In this document: positions 1-10,564 of the stretch, piece after piece | Position numbering within the stretch: the stretch's first letter is position 1 | How the letters are laid out: each line of letters starts with the position of its first letter | Origin: Bacteroidota bacterium | GTDB taxonomy: Bacteria; Bacteroidota; Bacteroidia; Flavobacteriales_D; Crocinitomicaceae | Direction of reading: 5' to 3' | Assembly (NCBI GenBank): GCA_030148165.1 | Contig: JASBTZ010000003.1 | Location: 992,001 to 1,056,000, forward strand | DNA length: 64,000 nt | Program-made: the position numbers and the translations under genes | Notes under the pieces: model-generated | Databases searched by the model: none | What the model was told of the DNA's origin: nothing | The model's input: the letters and a program-made list of their open reading frames with translations, nothing else

Positions 1-716
1 GATAACGAATCAGTTGACACACAAATATCATCAATGTAGTAGTAGGCCGAGTACTCATCTATACCAGTAATGCTACCGCTTCCTGTAGGAATCGTGTCGG
101 TATTTAGATTGTTCTCAAAATTACCAATGGTGATAAATTTTTCGCCGCCTTGTGCTATGTATTCACCGCGAAATTCCATCCACGTGGTTTTATCACTTAA
201 ATAATTACTATTACTTAATGATGGGGATAGAACGAATGCATAGGTGGAGTCATTCAACAATGAGTCGACTGTAAAGTGAACGCCAATGGAATTTGTATAA
301 TAATGACTACTATCGGCTAAAGACAAAAACATGGAAACATAATAGGTTTCGCCAGCAGTTAAAGGCGAATTTAAAGGAGCCTCAATGTATTCTCTATATT
401 CCCAATTCCAGGGAGCGATTCCTACCCAAGGATAAGCGATTAATAAACCGGCATAACTTTTTCCAGAAACGGGTTGTTGGTATCCCATGTTGTTTAAGGG
501 TACATCAAGCATAACATCCCATGGTTGAGAGACATAGCATTCATGGAATTGATCCGGTGTTCCTGCAGTGGGTTGAAACCAAGGCGGACAGTTTTGAATA
601 TCGCCAAATGTCCAGGTGCATTGTAGCGTATCCTCAAAACTCGGATTAGGCACCAAATTTTGCGCAGAGCTCTGAAACAGAGTGAACAGTAGCAGTATGT
701 TAAGTGCATACTTCAT
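1..716 (-). CDS. Exported Bacteroidota surface protein, N-terminal part (runs off the left edge)
   Basis: The frame is open from the ATG at 716 down to the window edge, giving about 238 residues with no stop. Residues 1-20 are a signal peptide ending in a typical Bacteroidota cleavage context (SSAQN). Directly after it comes NLVPNPSFED, which in Bacteroidota opens the jelly-roll-like N-terminal domain of secreted or OmpA-type surface proteins. The rest is rich in aromatics and threonine, as expected for a beta-sandwich. Its C-terminus, where an OmpA or T9SS sorting domain would sit, is outside the window. A cassette-type site (720-873) sits immediately upstream, so this gene is probably the next cargo of the array. 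The protein is clearly exported; its function is unknown. Confidence 0.75.
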   Translation of the reverse strand, partial: MKYALNILLLFTLFQSSAQNLVPNPSFEDTLQCTWTFGDIQNCPPWFQPTAGTPDQFHECYVSQPWDVMLDVPLNNMGYQQPVSGKSYAGLLIAYPWVGIAPWNWEYREYIEAPLNSPLTAGETYYVSMFLSLADSSHYYTNSIGVHFTVDSLLNDSTYAFVLSPSLSNSNYLSDKTTWMEFRGEYIAQGGEKFITIGNFENNLNTDTIPTGSGSITGIDEYSAYYYIDDICVSTDSL

Positions 717-719
717 TAT

Positions 720-873
720 CTATAACGTTTTGCGGCTATACTATCGCCGCACGTTTTAAAATGTTTGTAGTTGTAAGTTAAGAAAAAGCGACATAGCTTT
801 TGAAGTATGTTGGGTTAAATGAATTAGATGTTGAAAGTAGGGTTTGTGCAATGGAGTGAAAGTGCTGTTATAC
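720..873 (-). repeat. Cassette-boundary site A (attC-like)
   Basis: Read on the minus strand, the site opens with TATAACAGCAC (near 873) and closes with GCGGC...GCCGCAAAACGTTATAG (near 720). The end hexamers TATAAC and GTTATA are complementary. It lies between the stop of the gldN-like gene and the start of the partial gene at 716. The gldN-like cassette does not show matching ends: its start GTTAGATG is not complementary to this site's opening. The interior shares the TGTAAGTTA stretch with site G but lacks the 99-nt core. Confidence 0.6.
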
Positions 874-928
874 GCAACTGTCAAAATGAAATGAGAAGAA
901 TATTATAGTTTAATCTTTAACAAGCTAA

Positions 929-1762
929 TTATTTACCCCCCTCTATCACAATCTCCTCAAAATACTTCAGATATGTAATGGGTTTTCCGCGTTCATTAAA
1001 AAAATAACCTTCTTTTAGGTGAGGTTTTATTTCATTATAATCCAACCAGAATAATTCACGTTCACCCGTGATTTGACCCTCACGAATTTCAAAGACCATA
1101 GGGGCAATGGATTCGATAATCCGTTTCTTTTCATCGCCGTTTTTCTTAACCAGTATTTTAAGGCGGACCTTATACTTGATGATTTCTGAATCTCTGTACC
1201 ACTCGTAATTGCGCGGAGGATATACGTATGACACTGTGCCATCCGCCCATATGACGGTACTATCTTCTCCGTATTGGTTGGCTAAAGGTCGAGTCGATTG
1301 CGGTCCAAAAAGTCCTAAGTAATGGCACATCTGATCGCGGAGTTCCTGAGAGTTCAAGAAATTATCGTTTGGCTCGGTTCCTTTGATCGGATAGCGCAAT
1401 TCACCATCGTCATGTACTTGAAATGATTTTGGATCGTATGGACTGTATAGCGTTAGTGCACCGTTGATGATTTTAGGATGTAAAAGGGTATATAAATTAT
1501 CGCTACGTCCATTGAATGCAACCAGATAATTTTCGGCGTTCATCGCTGGTGAAGCAATGCATCTTAAATCAGGATTATCAAAATTCCATGATTCCAACCA
1601 GGCTTTTGAATAAGGGACAAACAAAGTAGAGTCCTTTTGACGGTCAATTTCTACATACACAGTTTTACTAAACGATGTTAATGCCTGAATCTGCTTTAGT
1701 TTAAGTGATAACAAGCCGAACAGAACAAATAAACTGAGTAGGGAATAGAACGTCTTTTTCAT
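929..1762 (-). CDS. GldN-family paralogue carried in the cassette array
   Basis: This 277-residue protein has an N-terminal signal/anchor segment (residues 1-28). It aligns clearly with the canonical GldN at 41335-42342: both have the block YLG.[LF]GPQ.TR.L.N.YGEDST, then ADGT..YVYPPR, then a later block ending RELFW. GldN is a periplasmic T9SS component that forms the outer-membrane ring with GldK. This copy is shorter than its chromosomal relative (277 against 335 residues) and lacks the extended N- and C-terminal parts. It is flanked by site B upstream and site A downstream and stands alone, without gldK, gldL or gldM. Family membership is solid. Whether it works in secretion, substitutes for GldN or interferes with it is unknown. 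Confidence 0.85.
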   Translation of the reverse strand: MKKTFYSLLSLFVLFGLLSLKLKQIQALTSFSKTVYVEIDRQKDSTLFVPYSKAWLESWNFDNPDLRCIASPAMNAENYLVAFNGRSDNLYTLLHPKIINGALTLYSPYDPKSFQVHDDGELRYPIKGTEPNDNFLNSQELRDQMCHYLGLFGPQSTRPLANQYGEDSTVIWADGTVSYVYPPRNYEWYRDSEIIKYKVRLKILVKKNGDEKKRIIESIAPMVFEIREGQITGERELFWLDYNEIKPHLKEGYFFNERGKPITYLKYFEEIVIEGGK

Positions 1763-1807
1763 GAGTTGAATTTAATTGTTGCGAATGAATTTCGTCATTT
1801 TTATTAC

Positions 1808-1959
1808 ATCTAACGTTTTGCGACTATGCAACGGTGCAGATATTAAATTGTTATATGATTGTAAGATAATGATTTGCCAACACTCCTTCAGCTTTTCGAG
1901 CGACAACCTCGCTCGAGCTTCAGTCTTCGCAAGCTTCGCTTGCTCTGGAGCTGTTAGCC
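1808..1959 (-). repeat. Cassette-boundary site B (attC-like, with 99-nt core)
   Basis: The minus-strand 5' end is TGGCTAACAGCTCC and the 3' end is CGCAAAACGTTAGAT. GTTAGAT fits the integron core consensus GTTRRRY. The site contains the 99-nt core (1850-1948) shared with sites D and G. The core has a perfect 8-bp stem, TCGAGCGA (1896-1903) with TCGCTCGA (1909-1916) around a 5-nt loop, and a second GCAAGC/GCTTGC hairpin. It sits between the stop of the TPR gene and the start of the gldN-like gene. Confidence 0.65.
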
Positions 1960-1969
1960 ACAGTTATTT

Positions 1970-3106
1970 TTATTTTTTTCCAGGTCTTGATGAAGCACCT
2001 GGTTTTAATTTTCCTTCCAAAATCTCAATAACAGTACTTTTTAAGTCCTCATAGTTGAAGCCCTCATTGAAACCAACATTGAAGGTTGAATGAGTGTCGC
2101 CTTTGTCCATGCCAAGAATGTACTTAGGTCCTCCGAGTTCAACCGAGATTACAGAATTTTCTGTCTGTATGCGATATTCAATTTCACCGTCTTTGTTCAC
2201 TACATAGAAAAGATGTTTGTAGTACAATTCTCCTTCGGGCTCTGCAAATCTTTCAAATACTTGAATTAGTTTATCGTTCCACTTGAATTGGTCAAAGCAG
2301 AACATGTCTTTTAGGTTGTCCTTTAGTAATCCTTTGCCATGTGCTTCATATAGCTTCTTTTCCAATGGCTCAGCTTTGTCATATTGTTTGCGAGCATAGT
2401 GAATTTGAATAAGCTTAGCATATGAATGGTAGTCGTTGGGTGCAAGTTCAACAAGTTCCATAAAAGCTGTCTCGGCTTTTTCATAGTTCTCTGCAAGTAG
2501 TTCAAAAAGTCCGATGTTGTATAGCACGTTGATATATGAGTCATTCTCTTTTGATATTTTGCCCTTGGCGATATAAAATGCCTCTAAAGCTTTTTCCTTT
2601 TGATTTAGAGAATTGTAAATCTGAGGTATCATTAAGTAAGCTCGGTCTGGTGCATTTTCTTGTTCTGTTGCCTTTTGATAGGCTTCAAGTGCTTTGTCAA
2701 ATTTGTCAATGCTGAAATAAGAATCACCAAGTCCACTGTAATAGTCACCGCTCGTATTAAGGAGTTCGATGGCTTTGTTGAAGAATTTTATGGCATTCTC
2801 AAATTGCCCCATGTAATTGTAGGTCATTCCTTTAATAAAGTAGGCATCAGGGTCGGTTGGGTCTTTCTCAATTGACATGTCCATGTGCTTAAGACAATTA
2901 TTGTCGTCCGCTTTCATGTAGTAAGCCATTCCGATGTAGTAAATGGCTTTTGCCGGATATTTTTTTGCTTTAGAGGCGTGAATGTCAATTATCTCGTCAT
3001 ATTTCTGATTGTCATAAAGTCCTTTAAGTTCTGTTGTCTGGTCGTCTTGTGCCATTACCGTCATTGAAAAGACTATCAAGAGAAGTACTGTTATTGTTTG
3101 TTTCAT
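1970..3106 (-). CDS. Exported tetratricopeptide repeat protein
   Basis: The 378-residue protein has a signal peptide (residues 1-19, ending VMAQ). About six TPR-like helical pairs follow between residues 30 and 260, with typical A/Y/F spacing (for example DAYFIKGMTYNYMG and AIKFFNKAIEL). The C-terminal 110 residues are a non-TPR domain with beta-strand character. TPRs are protein-binding scaffolds, and this one would act in the periplasm or at the envelope. The start at 3106 leaves a short leader after site C. The cassette start (GATGGCCACA) and end (TGTGGCTAAC) are complementary over 6 bp, consistent with a cassette unit. The specific partner is unknown. Confidence 0.8.
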   Translation of the reverse strand: MKQTITVLLLIVFSMTVMAQDDQTTELKGLYDNQKYDEIIDIHASKAKKYPAKAIYYIGMAYYMKADDNNCLKHMDMSIEKDPTDPDAYFIKGMTYNYMGQFENAIKFFNKAIELLNTSGDYYSGLGDSYFSIDKFDKALEAYQKATEQENAPDRAYLMIPQIYNSLNQKEKALEAFYIAKGKISKENDSYINVLYNIGLFELLAENYEKAETAFMELVELAPNDYHSYAKLIQIHYARKQYDKAEPLEKKLYEAHGKGLLKDNLKDMFCFDQFKWNDKLIQVFERFAEPEGELYYKHLFYVVNKDGEIEYRIQTENSVISVELGGPKYILGMDKGDTHSTFNVGFNEGFNYEDLKSTVIEILEGKLKPGASSRPGKK

Positions 3107-3120
3107 TGTCTATATTAATT

Positions 3121-3198
3121 GTGGCCATCGTTTTGCGGCTACGCACCGCTCCGCAATTCTAAGATAACATTTTCGATGCATGGAGTATAGGAGCTATT
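3121..3198 (-). repeat. Cassette-boundary site C (short attC-like)
   Basis: This is the shortest site, about 80 bp. On the minus strand it opens with the variant ATAATAGCTCC, where the others have TAACAGCTCC. It closes with GCGG(n)CCGCAAAACGATGGCC, where others have GTTAG. The hairpin half is intact but the core triplets have drifted. It separates the TPR gene from the gene at 3200-3784. Confidence 0.5.
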
Positions 3199-3199
3199 A

Positions 3200-3784
3200 T
3201 TATATACCGTCCAATTCTATTGCTGACTCAAGTGATTCTATTCTCTCGCCTGATTCATTATAGAAGTTCCAATTATTGTCATTCATAGTGCTTCGGTACC
3301 AACCATCATCACCGCAATTATTACCAAATTCTTCAACTTTTAACGTATAATGACCCTCCGCCTTGAGTTGACCATTTGGGTAGAAAAAGAGCCATTTACC
3401 GCTTTTAAAATTGTAGCCAGAAATAATAGGACCTGCGAATTGACAGTAAGTAGTTGCACCGAGTGAAAATTCTCCAATTGATTTAACAGAGTCATTTGGG
3501 TAATATTGAGTCCAGATTCCAATCTTACGATCATTGAATTCCATAAATGGATCATTTATCTTATTACCAATCCATTTATTCCCGACAGAATCAATTATTG
3601 TATCCATATATGTATAAAACCATTTATTATTATCGATGTGGTTAAATTGATCTTTAAAGGACTTTATTTCTACATATTGGGAATCTACCACGACTATTTC
3701 ACGTTCCTGCTTAACAGGTGTTCCGGTTTGACCTAGTAACAGGTTGGACAAAACGATCAGTGCTATCGTGATGGTGGCCTTCAT
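3200..3784 (-). CDS. Exported MORN-like/YwqK-like protein, function unknown
   Basis: The 194-residue protein has a signal peptide (residues 1-18, ending LLLGQ). Two segments resemble the MORN/YwqK-type repeat, which has the pattern G.W..YYPNG....G.: one near residues 91-107 (IGIWTQYYPNDSVKSIGEF) and one near residues 125-145 (SGKWLFFYPNGQLKAEGHY). Such repeats occur in many Bacteroidota exported proteins of unknown role. The stop codon is the first three bases beyond site C and the start codon abuts site D, so this is a tight single-gene cassette. The repeat assignment is moderately secure and no biochemical function can be stated. Confidence 0.7.
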   Translation of the reverse strand: MKATITIALIVLSNLLLGQTGTPVKQEREIVVVDSQYVEIKSFKDQFNHIDNNKWFYTYMDTIIDSVGNKWIGNKINDPFMEFNDRKIGIWTQYYPNDSVKSIGEFSLGATTYCQFAGPIISGYNFKSGKWLFFYPNGQLKAEGHYTLKVEEFGNNCGDDGWYRSTMNDNNWNFYNESGERIESLESAIELDGI

Positions 3785-3787
3785 AGT

Positions 3788-3966
3788 TTATAACGTTTTA
3801 CAGCTATACGATCGCCGCACGTGTTTTCACCCTGAGCGCAGTCGAAGGGTAAATGTTATATGATTGTAAGATAATGATTTGCCAACACTCCTTCAGCTTT
3901 TCGAGCGACAATCTCGCTCGAGCTTCAGTCTTCGAAAGTTTCACTTGCTCTGGAGTTGTAATGCGT
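3788..3966 (-). repeat. Cassette-boundary site D (attC-like, with 99-nt core)
   Basis: The minus-strand ends are CGCATTACAACTCC and AGCTGTAAAACGTTATAA. It carries the 99-nt core at 3855-3953, which differs from site B's copy at four positions. Three of those changes weaken the second hairpin. Next to the core is an extra insert, CACCCTGAGCGCAGTCGAAGGGT (3829-3851), with complementary ends (ACCCT/AGGGT). This is a short palindrome type seen scattered in Bacteroidota genomes. Confidence 0.6.
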
Positions 3967-3987
3967 ATTTCTTTTACATACTGGGGA

Positions 3988-4386
3988 TCAATTAATATCT
4001 ATGTTAATGCCTAATTCATTTTTCTTTGCATCAAATTCTTCCTTTGTATTGAATTCATACACTTTATAAGAATCTCGGTGCGGACTTTGATATTTTGTCA
4101 GGTCAATTATGAAGTAGTTTAATTGAATGCTATCCCCTTTAGCGTATTGTGGTAATTGATTTGCAATAATAAAATCTTCATTCGATTTAATTTCCTGAAC
4201 CTTTTCAGAAATTACTTCTAAACCACCACGCGGTATTGAGTCTGTATTCCATAAAAGAGTGAAATTATCGTCTGTAACAGAGCGACTAAGCCAAAAATCA
4301 TGCTGAATCATGATAAATTCTTGTTCCACATCAGTGCCATGGAAACATGAGCTTAGTGCAAGCAATATTATTGCTGTTCTCCACAT
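3988..4386 (-). CDS. Small lipoprotein of unknown function
   Basis: The 132-residue protein has a short lipoprotein signal (lipobox ALSSC, Cys14). The mature part is a small alpha/beta domain with the motif HDFWLSRSV near residues 29-37 and an acidic/lysine-rich C-terminus. It starts one base downstream of the stop of the membrane-protein gene at 4388 and so belongs to the three-gene unit 5364-3988 between sites E and D. Its layout resembles small immunity- or DUF3997-like lipoproteins, but I cannot assign a family with confidence. Confidence 0.65.
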   Translation of the reverse strand: MWRTAIILLALSSCFHGTDVEQEFIMIQHDFWLSRSVTDDNFTLLWNTDSIPRGGLEVISEKVQEIKSNEDFIIANQLPQYAKGDSIQLNYFIIDLTKYQSPHRDSYKVYEFNTKEEFDAKKNELGINIDIN

Positions 4387-4387
4387 A

Positions 4388-5008
4388 TTATTTCAATTTT
4401 TCCGTGTCGATGTTATAATAGATACTTCGATAGTTGTTTTGTTTGGTTCCAACAGTGTCTGTTGGGATAATTTTAAACGATAGTGAAATTATTTCTTTAT
4501 CACTTTCTGAAGATGTTGAATATCTAAGTGCATAAAATGATGACCGATTAAACCCTACACACTGATCCGTAATATCATTTCCACACTCGTCTACAACTGA
4601 TGGTTTGGACCATAAGCGATTAAAAGTCTCTTCACTCAAATATCCAATTCCATTTGTGTCGAGTGTAAGTATATTCTCTGAAACATTTGATAGCACGAGT
4701 GTAACTTGGCCTGTATAATTATGTGGGACTACGATTTTTAAGGTAGGAGAATAGATTTGATAATGAAAGAAAATAAATGCCACTGCAGTAATGATATAAA
4801 ATGCGGTTCGGCCAGGCATCTTTTTCCAAAACAATTTTGTGAACCAAACAATGCCTAACGCAGCAACCACTATCAGCGCAATTACAATTATACCGAGAAT
4901 TAACCCAGGTAAAATAATACCACCTGGAATACATAAGAGATGGTATAGAAGGGTTACTAATACGATTAGTGATATGACACCTGTAATGTTTTCAAGTTTC
5001 TTACTCAT
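4388..5008 (-). CDS. Membrane protein with C-terminal extracytoplasmic domain, unknown
   Basis: About 206 residues. Three hydrophobic segments occupy roughly residues 9-31, 34-58 and 70-90, followed by an extracytoplasmic beta-rich domain of about 110 residues with two cysteines (DECGNDITDQC). I place the start at 5008, where the TGA of the upstream gene overlaps the ATG (TGATG), a usual arrangement for translational coupling; an ATG at 5014 is possible. It is the middle gene of the three-gene unit in the cassette between sites E and D. I do not recognise the function. Confidence 0.65.
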   Translation of the reverse strand: MSKKLENITGVISLIVLVTLLYHLLCIPGGIILPGLILGIIVIALIVVAALGIVWFTKLFWKKMPGRTAFYIITAVAFIFFHYQIYSPTLKIVVPHNYTGQVTLVLSNVSENILTLDTNGIGYLSEETFNRLWSKPSVVDECGNDITDQCVGFNRSSFYALRYSTSSESDKEIISLSFKIIPTDTVGTKQNNYRSIYYNIDTEKLK

Positions 5009-5364
5009 CACCATAAAAATAAAAACGATACAATTCCAATAAATGCAATTAAGGCAATTATACAGCCAATTGATTTCCTTTTATCTTCTTTCTTGAACTG
5101 AGCAAGTAGATGTTCACCGTTTTCTTTTATTACAAAAAATCCACGCCATGCTTGATCCGGCTCGGAGTACCACCATTCTGTATTACTGTCTAGACATAAG
5201 TATCGGCCATATCCTTTGTCATTGGGATATTCAATTTTTCCTAAATACTTTATTTCCGTTGTAGAGAGTGGTTTAGTTTTCTTGCTTAAGGCTAGATCAA
5301 ACTCTTCGAACTGTGCTTGTTCGACAAACCGCGGTATTTCATTATAAAAGCACGAATCACACAT
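5008..5364 (-). CDS. Small protein with C-terminal membrane anchor, unknown
   Basis: The 118-residue protein begins with a CxxC motif (MCDSC) and ends in one hydrophobic helix (about residues 99-117) after a basic KKEDKRKS stretch. That suggests a tail-anchored cytoplasmic protein. The soluble part contains a tryptophan-rich segment (EWWYSEPDQAWRGFF). It is the first gene of a three-gene unit coupled by TGATG to the next. No family is recognised. Confidence 0.6.
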   Translation of the reverse strand: MCDSCFYNEIPRFVEQAQFEEFDLALSKKTKPLSTTEIKYLGKIEYPNDKGYGRYLCLDSNTEWWYSEPDQAWRGFFVIKENGEHLLAQFKKEDKRKSIGCIIALIAFIGIVSFLFLW

Positions 5365-5394
5365 TGTCTAATCAGTAATGGTTGGAAATGGATT

Positions 5395-5479
5395 ATTACG
5401 AATTTCGTTTTGCGGCTGCTATTCCGCCGGTAGTTTAAATTAATAAAATAAGCGTAGAGCATAGGCGCTGTTAGTGGTA
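5395..5479 (-). repeat. Cassette-boundary site E (attC-like)
   Basis: The minus strand opens with TACCACTAACAGCGCCTA at the right side and closes with CGGCGG...CAGCCGCAAAACGAAATTCG, where the core GTTAG is degenerate. Plus-strand GTTAGTGGTA (5470-5479) is a perfect 10-bp inverted complement of TACCACTAAC at 6318-6327 in site F, so the two ends of the cassette between them match. Confidence 0.65.
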
Positions 5480-5481
5480 GT

Positions 5482-6219
5482 TTACTGTTGGATTATGCAA
5501 TTTGTCTCATAGATTTGAAACTTAATACCATTATATTCTTTACTTGGCCTTGATTTGATAACTATTTCTACATCTCTCTCAAATCGCTCAACAATATTTC
5601 TGATGGATGCAAGCCGCGTCCTTTCAATTTTTTTTGCCACCTCAAGCGTAGAGACATTTGCGTCATAAATAGAATCATTGAAGAAATCACTTTTTCGAAC
5701 GTCATCTTTTCTTATTATCATAGGATCTACAAGGATAAAATCTTGATAGAGAATGCGGCCTTCTATGGATGGAAACATGTTCGATATTTCCAGAATCACG
5801 ATCTTTTTCTTATCTCCAGAATTCTGATCTTCAACAAATTCAAATACGGCTATTAACGAATCGATGGAAGGGCTAATTGCTAAACTATCTGCATAATGCA
5901 ACATGCCGTTTTCGATTATCGGGAATTCTTTGAGCCTAAATCTAACTACTCTTTCCGGATATTTAGCTCCAAAGGCGAACACTTTTAGCTCGCAGAAATC
6001 AGGATTTAATTCAAGCAGTTTTTTTCTTACCTCATGAGCTCTTTGATACGAAAGAAGCGTGTCTCCATTGACACATTCATTGGTATCACAGCTTCCTCCT
6101 ATTTCTAATGTGTAGCTGTAAGATAATTCCATAATATCTACTAATCGTTCTAATTCTCTAATCGCCACTGAATCAAGAGTTGATGAGCCTTCTTCAAACG
6201 ATATCACCGGGAATAACAC
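5482..6219 (-). CDS. OmpA-like domain protein, probably cut off from its signal peptide by an in-frame TGA
   Basis: The open frame gives 245 residues from a GTG at 6219. Residues 1-80 look like an OmpA-like peptidoglycan-binding fold: ISFEEGSSTLD, then a G.CDT-type strand, then SYQRAHEVRKKL. The remainder is unrecognised. In the same frame, directly upstream, a TTG at 6288 would start a hydrophobic signal-peptide-like segment (KIQLVIVLILVLRSSSA). It is interrupted by TGA (6229-6231) and then continues as TNTVLFPVIS. A Bacteroidota signal peptide normally ends ...SAQ just here, so I infer a nonsense mutation. Otherwise the GTG start produces a cytoplasmic protein. The cassette ends are perfectly complementary. 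Confidence 0.6.
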   Translation of the reverse strand: MLFPVISFEEGSSTLDSVAIRELERLVDIMELSYSYTLEIGGSCDTNECVNGDTLLSYQRAHEVRKKLLELNPDFCELKVFAFGAKYPERVVRFRLKEFPIIENGMLHYADSLAISPSIDSLIAVFEFVEDQNSGDKKKIVILEISNMFPSIEGRILYQDFILVDPMIIRKDDVRKSDFFNDSIYDANVSTLEVAKKIERTRLASIRNIVERFERDVEIVIKSRPSKEYNGIKFQIYETNCIIQQ

Positions 6220-6317
6220 AGTATTTGTTCATGCTGACGAAGAACGTAAAACCAATATGAGTACTATAACCAACTGGATCTTGCTCAATTCTAATAATAT
6301 TTCTTTGTCACTATCAT

Positions 6318-6404
6318 TACCACTAACGTTTTGCGACTACTCAACGGTGCAGCTCGCAATCAAGGTTGTTTATCTAAGGTAAGTTATTTGAGTGAGAAGG
6401 ATTA
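6318..6404 (-). repeat. Cassette-boundary site F (attC-like, degenerate 5' half)
   Basis: The 3' half on the minus strand is clear: GCACCGTTGAGTAGTCGCAAAACGTTAGTGG, closely matching site B's (GCACCGTTGCATAGTCGCAAAACGTTAG). The 5' half, between 6360 and the stop at 6406, lacks a recognisable TAACAGC. The site therefore looks partly eroded or recombined. Confidence 0.55.
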
Positions 6405-6405
6405 A

Positions 6406-7035
6406 TTACTCGAAGAATTCATATTCTATTACTTTTAGATTAAACAAGCCAACGGCATTCGTGTATTCTATTCGATCTAACAGACCGTTAGAATTGTAGA
6501 AATATGTTTCTCTGTAGTATAACGGTGAATATACTTCAGCAGTAGAACCGTCAGAATTAAAAGTGGTAATAGTTGAATCTGTAAAACTATCATATTCATC
6601 ATACCAGGTTGTTTGGATAACTATTTCCTGATGTAGCTTTTCGTTTTTGAATATTCTTTTTGTGATTATTTGAGTAGAGTCAGGAGTTGCAGGCACGTTA
6701 ACAGGTCCATCCCACTTAACATCTGTATCGATTAAAAATCCTTTTTCATTGTATGTAAATTTTATATAATGATAGCCCAGGTTCCAAATAGTTGATGTAT
6801 CTAAATTTTTCAGATCAGTTTCCTCGAATATATTAATATATCCATTTCTCAAATATTCATATCGCTTTGTCCAAAGTGAATCTCTAGAGGTAGAATCAAC
6901 TTTTATCGTTGTAACAGTTCTTGACCGAACTTTATTTACAAAAGCTATTGAATCCAAACCGCTCTTTATTCCATGGACAGTTTGACAAAACGAAATATTG
7001 GAAATGAGTAATAATATAAGAAGTAAAAACTTCAT
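6406..7035 (-). CDS. Exported protein of unknown function
   Basis: From the ATG at 7035 the product has 209 residues with a clean signal peptide (MKFLLLILLLISNISFCQ). I prefer this start because the upstream ATG at 7110 lies beyond site G's core sequence. The mature protein alternates charged and aromatic residues in short strands (DSLWTKRYEYLRNGY, HYIKFTYNEKGF, ETYFYNSNGLLDRIEYTN), resembling YD/RHS-like or sugar-binding beta-repeat proteins of Bacteroidota. No specific family or function is clear. It is a single-gene cassette between sites G and F. Confidence 0.65.
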   Translation of the reverse strand: MKFLLLILLLISNISFCQTVHGIKSGLDSIAFVNKVRSRTVTTIKVDSTSRDSLWTKRYEYLRNGYINIFEETDLKNLDTSTIWNLGYHYIKFTYNEKGFLIDTDVKWDGPVNVPATPDSTQIITKRIFKNEKLHQEIVIQTTWYDEYDSFTDSTITTFNSDGSTAEVYSPLYYRETYFYNSNGLLDRIEYTNAVGLFNLKVIEYEFFE

Positions 7036-7085
7036 AAATAGAGATTGAATATTGTAATAACGGTAGACCTGTAAGGCGTTACTAT

Positions 7086-7241
7086 TGCTACTAACGTTAC
7101 GGTTACGCACTGCCGCAGGTCTTTAAATGTTGTGTGATTGTAAGTTAGTGATTTGCCAACACTCCTTCAGCTTTTCGAGCGACAACCTCGCTCGAGCTTC
7201 AGTCTTCGCAAGCTTCGCTTGCTCTGGTACTGTTAGTAGCA
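7086..7241 (-). repeat. Cassette-boundary site G (attC-like, with 99-nt core)
   Basis: The two ends of this site are a perfect 10-bp inverted complement: TGCTACTAAC at 7086-7095 and GTTAGTAGCA at 7232-7241. It carries the 99-nt core at 7129-7227, which differs from site B's copy at four positions, all in the first quarter, with both hairpins intact. The 3' half is GCGGCAGTGCGTAACCGTAACGTTAG, a divergent form of the usual GCAAAACGTTAG. Confidence 0.65.
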
Positions 7242-7242
7242 T

Positions 7243-7760
7243 TTAGTTTGAAGATTGATATGAAGGTGTTTTATTGATTATATAATCCAACACTTGATCT
7301 AAATAATATATAATCAATGAGTATTTACTTTGATCAACAATCATAAGGAAAATTTTAAATTCTTCTATTTCTTTAAGACCACTTATGGTTTTGCTAAAAA
7401 GAATCTTTTCAGTGGAATCCTTCTGTTCATAAATCCGAATTTCCAAATTGTATTTTTTAAACCTTTTTTTGGTACGCATTGCAGCAGAAATAAAATCAAC
7501 ACTTAATGTGTCAAATGTTTCTACTATGTTGACGCAAGATTGAACCAATTCTTTTGGAGCATACATGCCAGATGGATTTTTTGAATAACTAATGTGTGTG
7601 TTAAAAGCAGTGTCCACAATCGAGTAATCCAACGGGATGTCCTTTTTCCCATTTTTAAATCAAATTCTACTCCTAATGATTTTTGCGAATAACATTGAGG
7701 TAGAACAATTAGGAGAAATAAGGTACATATGGGGACTTTAATTCTAGCTCTGTTATTCAT
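7243..7760 (-). pseudogene. Exported protein gene broken by a -1 frameshift in an A-run
   Basis: An ATG at 7760 starts a signal peptide (to about residue 27, QCYSQ) that continues as KSLGVEFDLKMGK. A second frame, 7243-7632, encodes a natural continuation (DIPLDYSIVDTAF...). The two join if one A is added to the five-A run (plus-strand TTTTT 7643-7647), giving MGKKDIPLDYSIV. The reconstructed product would be about 172 residues: exported, rich in charged residues, family unknown. Causes could be a real mutation in a decaying cassette, a sequencing error in the homopolymer, or slippage. The cassette lies between sites H and G. Confidence 0.6.
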
Positions 7761-7776
7761 GTTCTGATTTTCTTAT

Positions 7777-7862
7777 TGTTGCTAACATTTTGAGGCTACG
7801 AAACCAGCCGCTTCTCCAATGTAATCATTTTGCGGCTTGATTTGTAGGTGCTGTTAGTGGTA
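7777..7862 (-). repeat. Cassette-boundary site H (attC-like)
   Basis: The minus strand opens with TACCACTAACAGCACCTA, almost identical to site E's opening, and closes with GTAGCCTCAAAATGTTAGCAACA. Plus-strand GTTAGTGGTA (7853-7862) is a perfect inverted complement of TACCACTAAC at 8827-8836, so the following unit also has matching ends. The interior holds two partial copies of the TTTTGCGGC/TTTTGAGGC motif (7788-7796, 7828-7836). Confidence 0.6.
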
Positions 7863-7916
7863 TTAAATTAAATTCAATTTAATTATCTTAACTTCAAATT
7901 ATAAACACTATTCGCC

Positions 7917-8792
7917 ATGGAAATATTGACTTCATTCGGTATTCATTGTTCTGTTATTGGCTTTATGGCCTTAGCGATAAGCTCTGTCGCAGGAAAAAGT
8001 ATAAATTCCAAAATTTCGCTGTTGTTAATAATAGGCGGTATAAGTGCATCTGTATTAGGCTGCATATCTGGCTATTTAACATACTACTATACTAGAGGTT
8101 ATATCGCAACCTACCTTGGGGGTGGAACAGTTGTGTTAACTGCAATCTCTTATTTATTATACACCACTACCACAATTCCAAGAGATAAGATTGACGAACA
8201 ATTGGAAGAAGATGAACCTGGCACAAGCAGTGATTCGGAAGAAGACGAATTTCCAGAAGAAGATGATCGGCCAATTCATTGCTTTCCTGAAAAAATAAAG
8301 GGTCCGAACAAAAAAAACGTAAAACTAGCTGGAGAAGCATGGAACAAATCTTTCCGATCGGAACATGAGGTTTTGGTACGTAGTGAATATATGTTTTTTC
8401 AAGCGCAAGCAACCGGTCGTCAATATTACGGGTTTTGGTGGCAGAAATATAAATGTGAGATATCTTGGCTAGGATACATATATCACCGCGAGAAAGACCC
8501 AGTTTATCTTTTTATTGAGTGTATCGATGGTTGCAAGATTGTACCTGAGAAGAATGGTTCATTTAGAGGTCAGGATGGACCACTTGTTATAGAGTTTGAT
8601 GTAAATTGGGACATCTTAGACAGTATGGACACCATATATATTTATGTCAAGGCAATGGCTAACATAGAAGGCGTTGTGTCTGCTTCCATTAACCATCCAT
8701 CTGGTGTTGTGGGAGTTTCAGTCAACGACACTACCACAACAAAATCTTCTGAAATGGGTACATGGGTTTGGAAGTGCGAGGAAGTCCGCTAA
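7917..8792 (+). CDS. Integral membrane protein with acidic linker, unknown; opposite orientation to the rest of the array
   Basis: The 291-residue protein has three predicted helices (about residues 5-25, 32-54 and 62-84). An extremely acidic linker (about residues 93-117) and a soluble C-terminal domain follow. That domain has paired tryptophans (YGFWWQKYKCEISWLGY) and ends in a beta-rich part. It is the only plus-strand gene in the array, yet its unit is bounded by the perfect inverted complement GTTAGTGGTA (7853)/TACCACTAAC (8827). The gene therefore appears to have entered as a cassette in reverse orientation. No function can be assigned. Confidence 0.7.
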   Translation: MEILTSFGIHCSVIGFMALAISSVAGKSINSKISLLLIIGGISASVLGCISGYLTYYYTRGYIATYLGGGTVVLTAISYLLYTTTTIPRDKIDEQLEEDEPGTSSDSEEDEFPEEDDRPIHCFPEKIKGPNKKNVKLAGEAWNKSFRSEHEVLVRSEYMFFQAQATGRQYYGFWWQKYKCEISWLGYIYHREKDPVYLFIECIDGCKIVPEKNGSFRGQDGPLVIEFDVNWDILDSMDTIYIYVKAMANIEGVVSASINHPSGVVGVSVNDTTTTKSSEMGTWVWKCEEVR

Positions 8793-8826
8793 ATTTTGCT
8801 GATAAACTAGCTAGAGCCAATTATAT

Positions 8827-8836
8827 TACCACTAAC
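8827..8836. repeat. Terminal cassette end, complement of 7853-7862
   Basis: TACCACTAAC here is the exact reverse complement of the last 10 bases of site H and equals the end at 6318-6327 in site F. It is not followed by the usual GTTTTGCGGC hairpin half, so it looks like the outer edge of the array or a truncated site. Confidence 0.5.
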
Positions 8837-9176
8837 TTACTTATATACACAGTAAAACTGAATTATATATCCCAATATAGTCAATATTGTGTGGTTTTAA
8901 ATTTGTCAAATAACCGTTGCATGTCGTTTGTTGTCGAAATATTAACACGTCTTCATAATGAGCTGACTTACGCCCTCATTAAGCCAAAGACCCCTTCCCG
9001 ATTAGTTGACGTCTATCCCTGGACAAATTCCGCTTGCTGCCGACAAAGTGACGACGAATGACCATACAGTTGTTGCCTCGTCACAGAACTGTGACACACG
9101 ACTCTTGCACAATGACAGCTCTTCTCTGCGAGGTGACAAACGAGAAAAGTGAAGTGTTCCCCCGCTCCCGAACAAG
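8837..9176. other. Non-coding stretch, no gene seen
   Basis: Short open frames here lack signal peptides, ribosome sites or recognisable motifs and overlap each other on both strands. The right half (from about 9130) shows increasingly clear echoes of the 21-bp unit that dominates 9177-9458 (for example AGGTGACAAACGAGAAAAGT). The left half is simple AT-rich sequence. I see no tRNA, integrase or attachment gene in it. Confidence 0.6.
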
Positions 9177-9458
9177 TGAAATGTGTTCTAGACGAGGTGA
9201 ACATCGTTTCCGGTGAATGAACGCCCGCTGAAGACGACCGGAACATCGTTCTCGGTGACCTTACGAAGGAATAAGGTGACCTGTACATTGCTTCTGGTAA
9301 GCTGAACGGACGTAAATGCCATCATTCGCAAGGTAAATGTCTCTGTACACAAGGCTATTGTCACTGATCGCAAAGCAAAAGCTACTCGTTGCAAGGAAAA
9401 TGTCGTCCTCACACAGACTAATGTCATTGAGAGATAGAAGAATGTTCGATATCACTTC
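9177..9458. repeat. Degenerate 21-bp tandem repeat array
   Basis: Reading from 9197 the sequence divides into consecutive 21-base units: 9197-9217, 9218-9238, 9239-9259, 9260-9280, 9281-9301, a 10-base partial, then 9312-9332, 9333-9353, 9354-9374, 9375-9395, 9396-9416, 9417-9437 and 9438-9458. Many units share AATGT near bases 4-8 and end in GCAAG or GGTGA-like triplets (for example GTAAATGTC...CACAAG). Because 21 is a multiple of 3, weak heptad-like peptides appear in all frames. None has an expressed-gene look, so I call the array non-coding. It ends just inside the 3' end of the adjacent glycosyltransferase gene. Confidence 0.7.
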
Positions 9459-10564
9459 TCATAAATCCCCCTCCCCTTCCACTTTGGTTTGTAAATTAAT
9501 ACTAAAAGACCTATTAGTAAACTATAGAATGGAAAGAGAATTTCGTAAATCGGTATCAGCCACCAGGTTGTGAGTTTACCAATGCGTTGGAAATAGAAAT
9601 AGAATAAAAGCATATCTACCAATGCCTTAAGCGAAATGAAAATGATCAGAAGCATCCACTCTGCTTTGAGTATCATCGTTAAACTCATCGCTAAGAATAC
9701 GCCTATGAGTAAGCTCTGGAGAATGCCAACTGTGTTAGCGAGCACATCCTTGATATCACGGGTCTTCCCAATCCAGCGCAAGCGCTGATCAATAAATTCC
9801 CGAAAGGATTGTGGAGTTTCCGTAGTAACGCGAGTGGCAGGATGAGTCACCAATCGGACATCCGTATCATTTTCGCGAAAGTCCCTCAACAAATAGGTAT
9901 CATCTCCACTCGCGGCATTAATGTGTGATCCCAGATCATCTACCCGTTCAAATGTATCACGTCTGTATAGTAAGTTGGCACCGCTTGCCATAATCGGTCG
10001 TGCCAATCCGGCCAGCCCCGCATTTGCCGCATTCACCAGCACCAGATCAATTTCGTAAAAGTACTCCAGGAAAGACTTAGGGATCATTGTTACCGATAAG
10101 ACGTACAAATCAGCTTGTCCAAGCTGGCCAATGTTCTCAAAATAATCCGGTGCCATTTCAATATCGGCATCTAAAGTCAGAATGTACTCCGATTCAGAAT
10201 GGTCTATCGCGTAGCGCAAGGCCTTCTTCTTACCAAACACATCTTCCGGTAAGGATAGAATGCGATAGTTTTTGATATTCAGTTCGTTGTGGATCGAAGC
10301 AACCCCCTCATCGCTGGAATGGTCATCAATAAAAATAAATTCCCGCGGAAGCTTCGTCTGTTCATTAATACATTTCAACAAAGGTCCGATCCGGCGCGCT
10401 TCATTCCGAAATGGAATTAGCACCACAATGTTGTTGACGTCTATTTTATTCCCTTGTGTGAAATAAGGCCGCTCTTTCCTTATCTGAAGAAAATATCCAA
10501 TGGAAATAATTATTCCGTGCAGAAGAATATAGACAGTAAAGAATATAACAATGTGCTGAATCAT
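9452..10564 (-). CDS. Membrane glycosyltransferase, family 2
   Basis: The 370-residue protein has an N-terminal membrane helix (about residues 4-26), then a GT-A fold glycosyltransferase domain. The nucleotide-binding core VVLIPFRNEARRIG leads to FIDDHSSD. TLDADIEM provides the DxD metal-binding motif and QRLRWIGKT the QxxRW motif, both typical of processive or membrane GT2 enzymes. Two or three C-terminal helices follow (about residues 285-360). It probably transfers a sugar to a lipid or polysaccharide at the inner membrane. The start overlaps the stop of the upstream gene by four bases (ATGA), so the two are translationally coupled. Substrate unknown. Confidence 0.88.
   Translation of the reverse strand: MIQHIVIFFTVYILLHGIIISIGYFLQIRKERPYFTQGNKIDVNNIVVLIPFRNEARRIGPLLKCINEQTKLPREFIFIDDHSSDEGVASIHNELNIKNYRILSLPEDVFGKKKALRYAIDHSESEYILTLDADIEMAPDYFENIGQLGQADLYVLSVTMIPKSFLEYFYEIDLVLVNAANAGLAGLARPIMASGANLLYRRDTFERVDDLGSHINAASGDDTYLLRDFRENDTDVRLVTHPATRVTTETPQSFREFIDQRLRWIGKTRDIKDVLANTVGILQSLLIGVFLAMSLTMILKAEWMLLIIFISLKALVDMLLFYFYFQRIGKLTTWWLIPIYEILFPFYSLLIGLLVLIYKPKWKGRGIYEK

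Follow-up and report, generated by a model that had tools for sequence, protein, structure and literature searches.

The DNA stretch analysed here (the window) comprises 64,000 nucleotides of a Crocinitomicaceae bacterium of the phylum Bacteroidota, namely C14:992001-1056000 (contig JASBTZ010000003.1) of a 3.5-Mb genome in 18 contigs that is 98.8% complete. Positions 1 to 8836 of the window are occupied by an integron-type cassette array, very probably belonging to a system in which circular gene cassettes with hairpin sites would be moved by an integrase encoded on another contig, C8, acting in trans on orphan attI heads. In what follows, the TAAC side of a cassette site is its 5' box and the GTT side, the place of insertion, is its 3' box. 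The array goes on to the left of the window, with an additional site at C14:991126, while its right end at 8836 is exactly the first crossover point.

The cassette array of the window

A preliminary description of this DNA had listed eight gene-flanking places, A to H, with a common minus-strand plan, and direct reading, repeat search and scans found related sites at all eight. The plan itself is worn: instead of GTTA the crossover box reads GATG at C (3121) and GAAA at E (5395), and D and F have no clean TAAC side, so that at most four of the eight sites look intact. Two further generalizations held only in part, as the unit between E and D contains three open reading frames (ORFs) instead of one gene, and the gene of the first cassette lies on the plus strand, opposite to the other cargo. 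The exact word TAACGTTTTGC occurs in 30 copies genome-wide, compared with 2 for the reversed control word, and these copies are clustered on contigs C3, C6, C8, C14, C17 and C18. A Pfam scan of ten cassette proteins of the window placed a GldN-like, a TPR, a MORN and an OmpA protein above the cut-offs, the others having no match above them; the GldN-like cargo (929-1762) resembles a gliding/secretion protein.

Features of the window, listed leftward from the head of the array
Feature	Position	Strand	Remarks
Orphan attI-like head (GTGTATATAAGTAA/GTT)	8837-8860	-	No integrase adjoining; resembles the core of integrase-adjacent attI sites
First cassette	7787-8836	-	Start GTTAGTGGTA at 8836(-), read leftward, and the site H 5' box TACCACTAAC at 7862 are perfectly complementary, which sets these limits
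First-cassette ORF	7917-8792	+	291 aa, no Pfam match
Site H, attC-like	7779-7862	-	Crossover GTT at 7786
Cassette ORFs 7243-7632 and 7524-7760	7243-7760	-	Two frames; probably a broken gene
Site G, attC-like	7095-7240	-	Crossover GTT at 7095 (direct reading); repeat family D1
Cassette gene	6406-7044	-	No Pfam match
Site F	6320-6390	-	Crossover GTT at 6327; 5' side not clean
OmpA-domain cassette gene	5482-6219	-	245 aa, Pfam
Site E	5397-5482	-	Crossover box decayed (GAAA); 5' box TACCACTAAC pairs perfectly with the cassette start at 6327 (direct reading)
Three cassette ORFs, one unit	3988-5364	-	132, 208 and 118 aa; no Pfam match above cut-off
Site D	3787-3975	-	Crossover GTT at 3794; 5' box decayed
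MORN-repeat protein cassette gene	3200-3784	-	194 aa, Pfam
Site C	3121-3205	-	Crossover box decayed (GATG; direct reading)
TPR protein cassette gene	1970-3106	-	378 aa, Pfam
Site B, attC-like	1807-1960	-	Crossover GTT at 1814
GldN-like cassette gene	929-1762	-	277 aa, Pfam PF19841, E 1.4e-9
Site A, attC-like	719-874	-	Crossover GTT at 726

The surroundings of the array were compared within the genus, where 30 other genomes carry the right-hand flanking gene and the region was compared in 12 of them, over 3.4-11.5 kb. The glycosyltransferase and flippase genes to the right of the array are kept in 12/12, and near this flanking pair neither any of 13 window cassette proteins nor the exact word GCAAAACGTT was found. 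The sites thus do not sit in a fixed position with the same genes in all relatives, the outcome that the preliminary description had named as speaking against mobility. Across the whole genome the site word, with its 30 copies here, reaches only 0-9 in 33 other genomes of the genus, mostly near the control level. A clean empty site was not shown, as no left-flank gene was found near the conserved right flank in the congeners. Between the array head and the glycosyltransferase gene, window 8950-9470 is an odd stretch with many short recurring words by eye. About 30 nt (TTCGACAACAAACGACATRCAACGG) are common to window 8911-8941 and to locus L023 upstream of 15512, in both cases before an orphan head, and are possibly a promoter.

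Pairing of cassette ends and structure of the sites

In integrons the circle opens at GTT; the bases that follow GTT where a cassette begins therefore belong to its end site and must pair with the 5' box of that site. For this comparison 5' boxes were located by a TAACAGCACCTA-like consensus alone, pairing being ignored, and the start was taken as GTTA plus six variable bases. All six variable bases paired between start and end of the same cassette in 12 of the 27 scored cassettes of this genome, and the mean of 4.41 paired bases out of 6, compared with 2.51 after permutation, was reached in none of 20,000 permutations. The agreement dropped to background beyond base 10 of the box, and boxes that were merely neighbours paired at 1.97/5 in a first scan, against 1.79 for random ones. 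Start-end pairing within one and the same cassette indicates that the units circularise and open at GTT. On contig C6, five successive cassettes pair at 9, 10, 10, 10 and 10 of ten bases, and the first pairs at 10/10 with its attI; in the window, apart from the first cassette and the F-E boxes, the other sites have decayed.

The preliminary description had found the L-site pairing of classical attC not obvious, yet L-arm pairing proved to be real. In 32 sites of this genome, the own arms reached a mean of -9.7 kcal/mol versus -7.0 kcal/mol for swapped arms (0/5000 permutations), and pairing was equally site-specific in 27 sites from integrase loci (0/5000), which then included L123. This site was later dropped as spurious (arm energy -5.1), leaving a set of 26 with one site per integrase locus; L020 is the C8 site of this genome, L079 and L080 belong to a single genome, and L131 is also included. 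The sites vary considerably in length and sequence. The stems are largely symmetric with single mismatches, and the unpaired central spacer is 1 nt versus 5 nt in 15/26. One script, applied to both sets, found an extrahelical base on the 5' arm, the expected one opposite the crossover, in 4/26 sites here and in 14/14 canonical ones; a base on the 3' arm only, counted apart, was seen in 5/26, and 17/26 had none on either arm. The canonical control consists of 14 sites from three IntI loci (L230, L232 and L235) of the same phylum, two of them alike, and was obtained by a looser canonical-attC scan of the IntI loci, the strict scan giving none. The extrahelical bases of canonical attC are docked by the I2 helix of the integrase, as described in passages of PMC7790495 and PMC2727003.

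A different irregularity recurs in the present sites. The pair 15 positions past TAAC is mispaired in 23/25 locus sites and in 25 of the 26 scorable own-genome sites (of 32), the mispair being A.C in 20/25 and 22/26, respectively. Within the locus set, a mispair occurs in no more than one of 25 sites at position 14, and likewise at position 17, and in four at position 16; the next commonest are position 12 (9/26) and position 10 (7/26); position 15 is special mainly in this cross-locus comparison. A top-strand A.C corresponds to a bottom-strand G.T, which pairs, and the bottom strand is accordingly predicted to be the more stable one in 24/26 integrase-locus sites and 20/24 own-genome sites versus 15/32 control segments. 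The position-15 pair may thus mark the strand.

The C8 integrase, its probable platforms and its relatives

Seven tyrosine recombinase family matches were found in the genome, none above the IntI family cut-off. One of them is a 372-aa protein on contig C8 (the C8 integrase), and tblastn with this protein gave no match in the window, in agreement with the absence of an integrase noted before; the recombinase that was to be sought left of position 1 turned out to be in the genome, on contig C8. At 69 nt past the C8 integrase stop lies an attI-like sequence, ...GCATATATACTA/GTTAGTAACA, and then come cassettes with the same kind of sites, the order of integrase, attI and array running on one strand. 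The GTTAGTAACA of this attI has a perfect 10/10 partner at the end of the first cassette. The C8 integrase is probably the enzyme of the system.

The insert specific to IntI (I2) is absent in 33/33 proteins of the C8 integrase family and present in 6/6 IntIs, the region measuring 36-37 residues (33/33) versus 77-79 (6/6) in the alignment. A seventh IntI candidate, L174 (45 residues in the region), was excluded from the IntI set because it groups with IS91-type recombinases. In the AlphaFold model of a relative, the extra helix is likewise absent from the insert region. The extra N-terminal domain of the C8 integrase is missing in some relatives, and when 79 residues of it from a relative were compared with the PDB, no match was reliable (best E 0.14). 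Phage records matched the integrase in 90 cases at E 1e-15 or better, never across more than 80% of its length. A neighbouring subfamily is represented in genome G078 by twelve near-identical, insertion-sequence-like tyrosine recombinase genes with 39% identity to the C8 integrase.

The comparison across genomes covered 40 further integrase loci from the same family, chosen among the better matches (41 with our own), and 80 from named genomes, which were the top ones among at least 592 matches and came in part from outside Bacteroidota; the named relatives are mostly Bacteroidota. One pattern for the attI-like motif, roughly TATAAANNA/GTT, matched 27/41 family loci (own included) and 14/80 of the others, and in 33/41 attI-bearing loci the motif lies 65-135 nt past the integrase stop. 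Two of these 41, L155 and L165, are probably outside this system. The contigs of 5/41 stop at most 4 nt past the crossover, as would be expected where first cassettes differ within a population. Inverted repeats in attI are slightly longer than in shuffles (mean 7.7 vs 6.2; at least 8 nt in 20/41), on which we place no weight. By eye, a second attI type lies directly 3' of the integrase in L084, L095, L112, L113, L120 and L121, where a near-perfect palindrome of roughly 24-32 nt just before GTT replaces the TATAAANNA core.

Looking back from the first site of each own-genome array revealed attI-like heads that have a perfect partner and no adjoining integrase at C6, C18:67k and C18:216k, together with a second orphan-head type, likewise with a perfect partner, common to C3:163k and C14:1320k. 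The window array, which opens with GTGTATATAAGTAA/GTT at 8837, is headed in the same way. Over the 76 bases preceding GTT, the C6 head shows no difference from the attI of the integrase, a stretch whose first base lies 7 bases ahead of where the integrase stop codon ends. The first site at C14:177k and two in the second C3 cluster had no attI-like partner, and the C17 array starts at the contig end. One integrase apparently serves several attI platforms.

The same arrangement recurs in other genomes. In the named set, 14 attI loci extend for more than 400 nt downstream, and 10 of these possess a partner box at 9/10 or better, 1.74 being expected from random words. We also followed cassettes outward from the integrase, demanding a partner of at least 8/10 and a stem of -9 kcal/mol or better, and in 121 integrase loci found at least one cassette in 31, at least two in 17 and at least three in 12. 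The longest chains are those of Flavobacterium enshiense DK69 with ten cassettes, Algibacter onchidii with six and Winogradskyella ursingii with four. The random rate was 0.01-0.19 per step, which understates chance for single-cassette chains because several GTT starts were tried per locus. Weak rows are L123 and L149 (8/10 only) and the chains of L085 and L116, which open with an 8/10 step; L102 has 8 in this test and 10 from its attI in the partner-box test. Homologues of the integrase (E 1e-50 or better) occur in 101/198 sampled genomes of the class Bacteroidia and 71/121 genera, an upper bound since the cut-off requires neither attI nor cassettes. A Chryseobacterium plasmid carries an integrase homologue, an attI-like motif and one candidate cassette.

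Two loci stand somewhat aside. L131, in a record titled as a Spirochaetota metagenome-assembled genome, has an integrase relative, a 10/10 cassette partner and a good stem, and could be a case of transfer or a misbinned contig. In L190 (pHH1107, FJ012881.1), a shortened integrase relative annotated as TnpF (tpnF, 4019-4684; 52% identity over 227 aa) lies directly before tet(X3), which occupies the first-cassette position, preceded by an inverted repeat and GTT; the search for a cassette end at tet(X3) gave nothing convincing. This relative also matches many Acinetobacter plasmids among the matches listed.

Proposed system, alternatives and known integrons

The circle signature, the recombinase and attI-like site heading a sister array, and the equal arrangement in other Bacteroidota uphold the earlier suggestion of a mobile cassette system with attC-like ends. 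We propose that the array in the window is one of several that belong to a chromosomal system of integron type. Each cassette, made up of a gene and a hairpin-forming site, would circularise and be inserted by the C8 integrase at GTT, beside an attI-like platform or another cassette site. The integrase would act in trans on scattered orphan attI heads, the head at window 8837-8860 among them. Recombination of the cassette site would most likely involve a single folded strand, probably the bottom one, whose R stem has 10 bp and whose L stem has about 18 bp, with a spacer of 1/5 nt left unpaired. The choice of strand may be made through the conserved position-15 mispair, A.C on top and a G.T wobble at the bottom; in canonical integrons the I2 helix reads the extrahelical bases, and the C8 integrase has no such insert.

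Several observations weigh against this proposal. Movement is deduced from sequence, and the comparison within the genus used one genome per species. The array of the window is partly decayed, having lost two crossover boxes and two 5' boxes, with one gene apparently broken, and in the genome-wide first scan 7/27 cassettes paired at no more than 2/5 variable bases. Extrahelical bases are scarce and not wholly absent (the 4/26 and 5/26 given above), and in the own-genome sites mispairs are frequent at positions 4, 5, 10 and 13 too (17, 20, 15 and 12 of 26). Chains of a single cassette are weaker evidence given the several GTT starts, our own C8 array falls below the stem threshold of the chain test (-8.4 vs -9), the attI pattern is present in only part of the family loci (27/41) and of the others (14/80), and the prevalence among Bacteroidia counts homologue matches only.

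Of the alternatives, the one that survives best, although we consider it unlikely, is a classical integron, in which the C8 integrase would be an IntI that has diverged and shed its insert, and the arrays would amount to ordinary attC clusters without integrase plus one platform. By sequence, the nearest solved structure is indeed V. cholerae IntI (2a3v, 157.6 bits), with archaeal XerA close (155.7 bits), and NCBIfam TIGR02249 matches the C8 integrase at 226.5 bits, which is under its cut-off of 265. The best tree sets IntI with Xer-like proteins of Patescibacteria, apart from the C8 integrase family, while the approximately unbiased (AU) test leaves a joint clade of that family and IntI standing (p 0.078, not rejected). 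The insert missing from every family protein, the 17 sites without an extrahelical base on either arm where each canonical site has one, and the several attI heads in one genome all argue against a classical integron.

It is improbable that the system is inactive in this genome and the window array a decaying remnant, as the crossover boxes at C and E and the seemingly broken cassette gene might suggest. The integrase frame is intact, and R, K, HxxR, H and Y, whose roles we take to be those of these residues in tyrosine recombinases, are invariant in 24 aligned proteins. The five C6 cassettes and their attI junction retain nearly complete pairing, and the abundance of the site word here, far above its control, is not matched by any of the 33 congeners.

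We give even less credence to the host XerCD moving the cassettes at dif-like sites, in the manner of integrative mobile elements exploiting Xer (IMEX), with the C8 integrase a bystander. Two XerC/D-like proteins are encoded in the genome, and the attI core is A+T rich, as dif is. A passage of PMC7790495 describes the CTX phage as using XerCD with a hairpin. However, integrase homologues head arrays in many genomes, with the attI-like motif at a similar distance past the stop, and the 76 bases before GTT at the integrase locus are copied to the C6 orphan head. That the sites are dispersed non-mobile repeats (terminators or REP-like, repetitive extragenic palindromic, hairpins) flanking genes by chance is hardly credible: they are hairpins between genes on one strand, yet terminators explain neither the start-end complementarity nor its 10-base limit nor the attI junctions, and an Rfam scan of window 1-10500 gave no family at gathering score and two matches, both below.

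The integron-type system proposed here appears to work like an integron while failing two of its defining features, the IntI insert and the regular extrahelical bases of attC. According to a passage of PMC7790495, the I2 helix is necessary for cassette capture and is the innovation that gave integrases single-strand recombination. A natural cassette system without I2, in which the docked bases are mostly missing, makes the alternative between the necessity of I2 and two solutions directly testable. Because the enzyme and most sites lack the paired features deemed essential, cassette capture may operate by, or may have arisen along, a second route. Whether this amounts to a second, I2-independent kind of integron widespread in Bacteroidia, with a Xer/XerA-type recombinase evolved independently of IntI, a conserved position-15 pair taking the place of extrahelical bases and I2 in the choice of strand, and several orphan platforms per integrase, we regard as an even question. 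The IntegronFinder 2.0 survey (PMC9024848) lists one complete integron in Bacteroidetes proper, that of Salinibacter ruber. In our sample canonical IntI genes above the cut-off were seen in 57/198 genomes of the phylum, far more than that one case, and the difference may lie in taxonomy, as the phylum here may include further classes. Integrase relatives in about half of the sampled class genomes, a count of which arrays are not part, suggest a large hidden reservoir of gene cassettes. The authors of a metagenome survey (PMC7370490) remark that their attC model was trained on known sites and is likely to overlook many forms. We found no description of such a system in the open-access literature searched, which covered no preprints and few subscription papers, so that an earlier description is possible.

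Among known systems, the integrons (such as class 1 and the Vibrio superintegron) share with the present one a tyrosine recombinase whose gene adjoins attI. Their cassettes, too, are circles that open at GTT and bear imperfect hairpin sites, built of R and L stems with a spacer that stays unpaired, and their cargo likewise consists of small genes that are mostly unknown. In contrast to integrons, the integrase here has no IntI insert, and the sites are mostly without extrahelical bases and carry the position-15 mispair. The R pairing spans 10 bases here and 7 bases in canonical integron sites. Integrase and cassettes run in the same direction, attI follows the 3' end of the integrase gene, and several orphan attI-like heads occur in one genome. 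The window array resembles the CALIN elements of IntegronFinder (attC clusters without integrase) in having no integrase, but begins at its own attI-like site and so has the appearance of a platform served in trans. Archaeal XerA (NCBIfam NF040815), which resolves dimers, differs in that the C8 integrase has an extra N-terminal domain and cassette arrays. Finally, IMEX elements and the CTX phage likewise offer a single-strand hairpin as a site to an enzyme without I2, as a passage of PMC7790495 describes, whereas in the system proposed here the recombinase is a dedicated one and the cassettes are passive and stand in ordered arrays.

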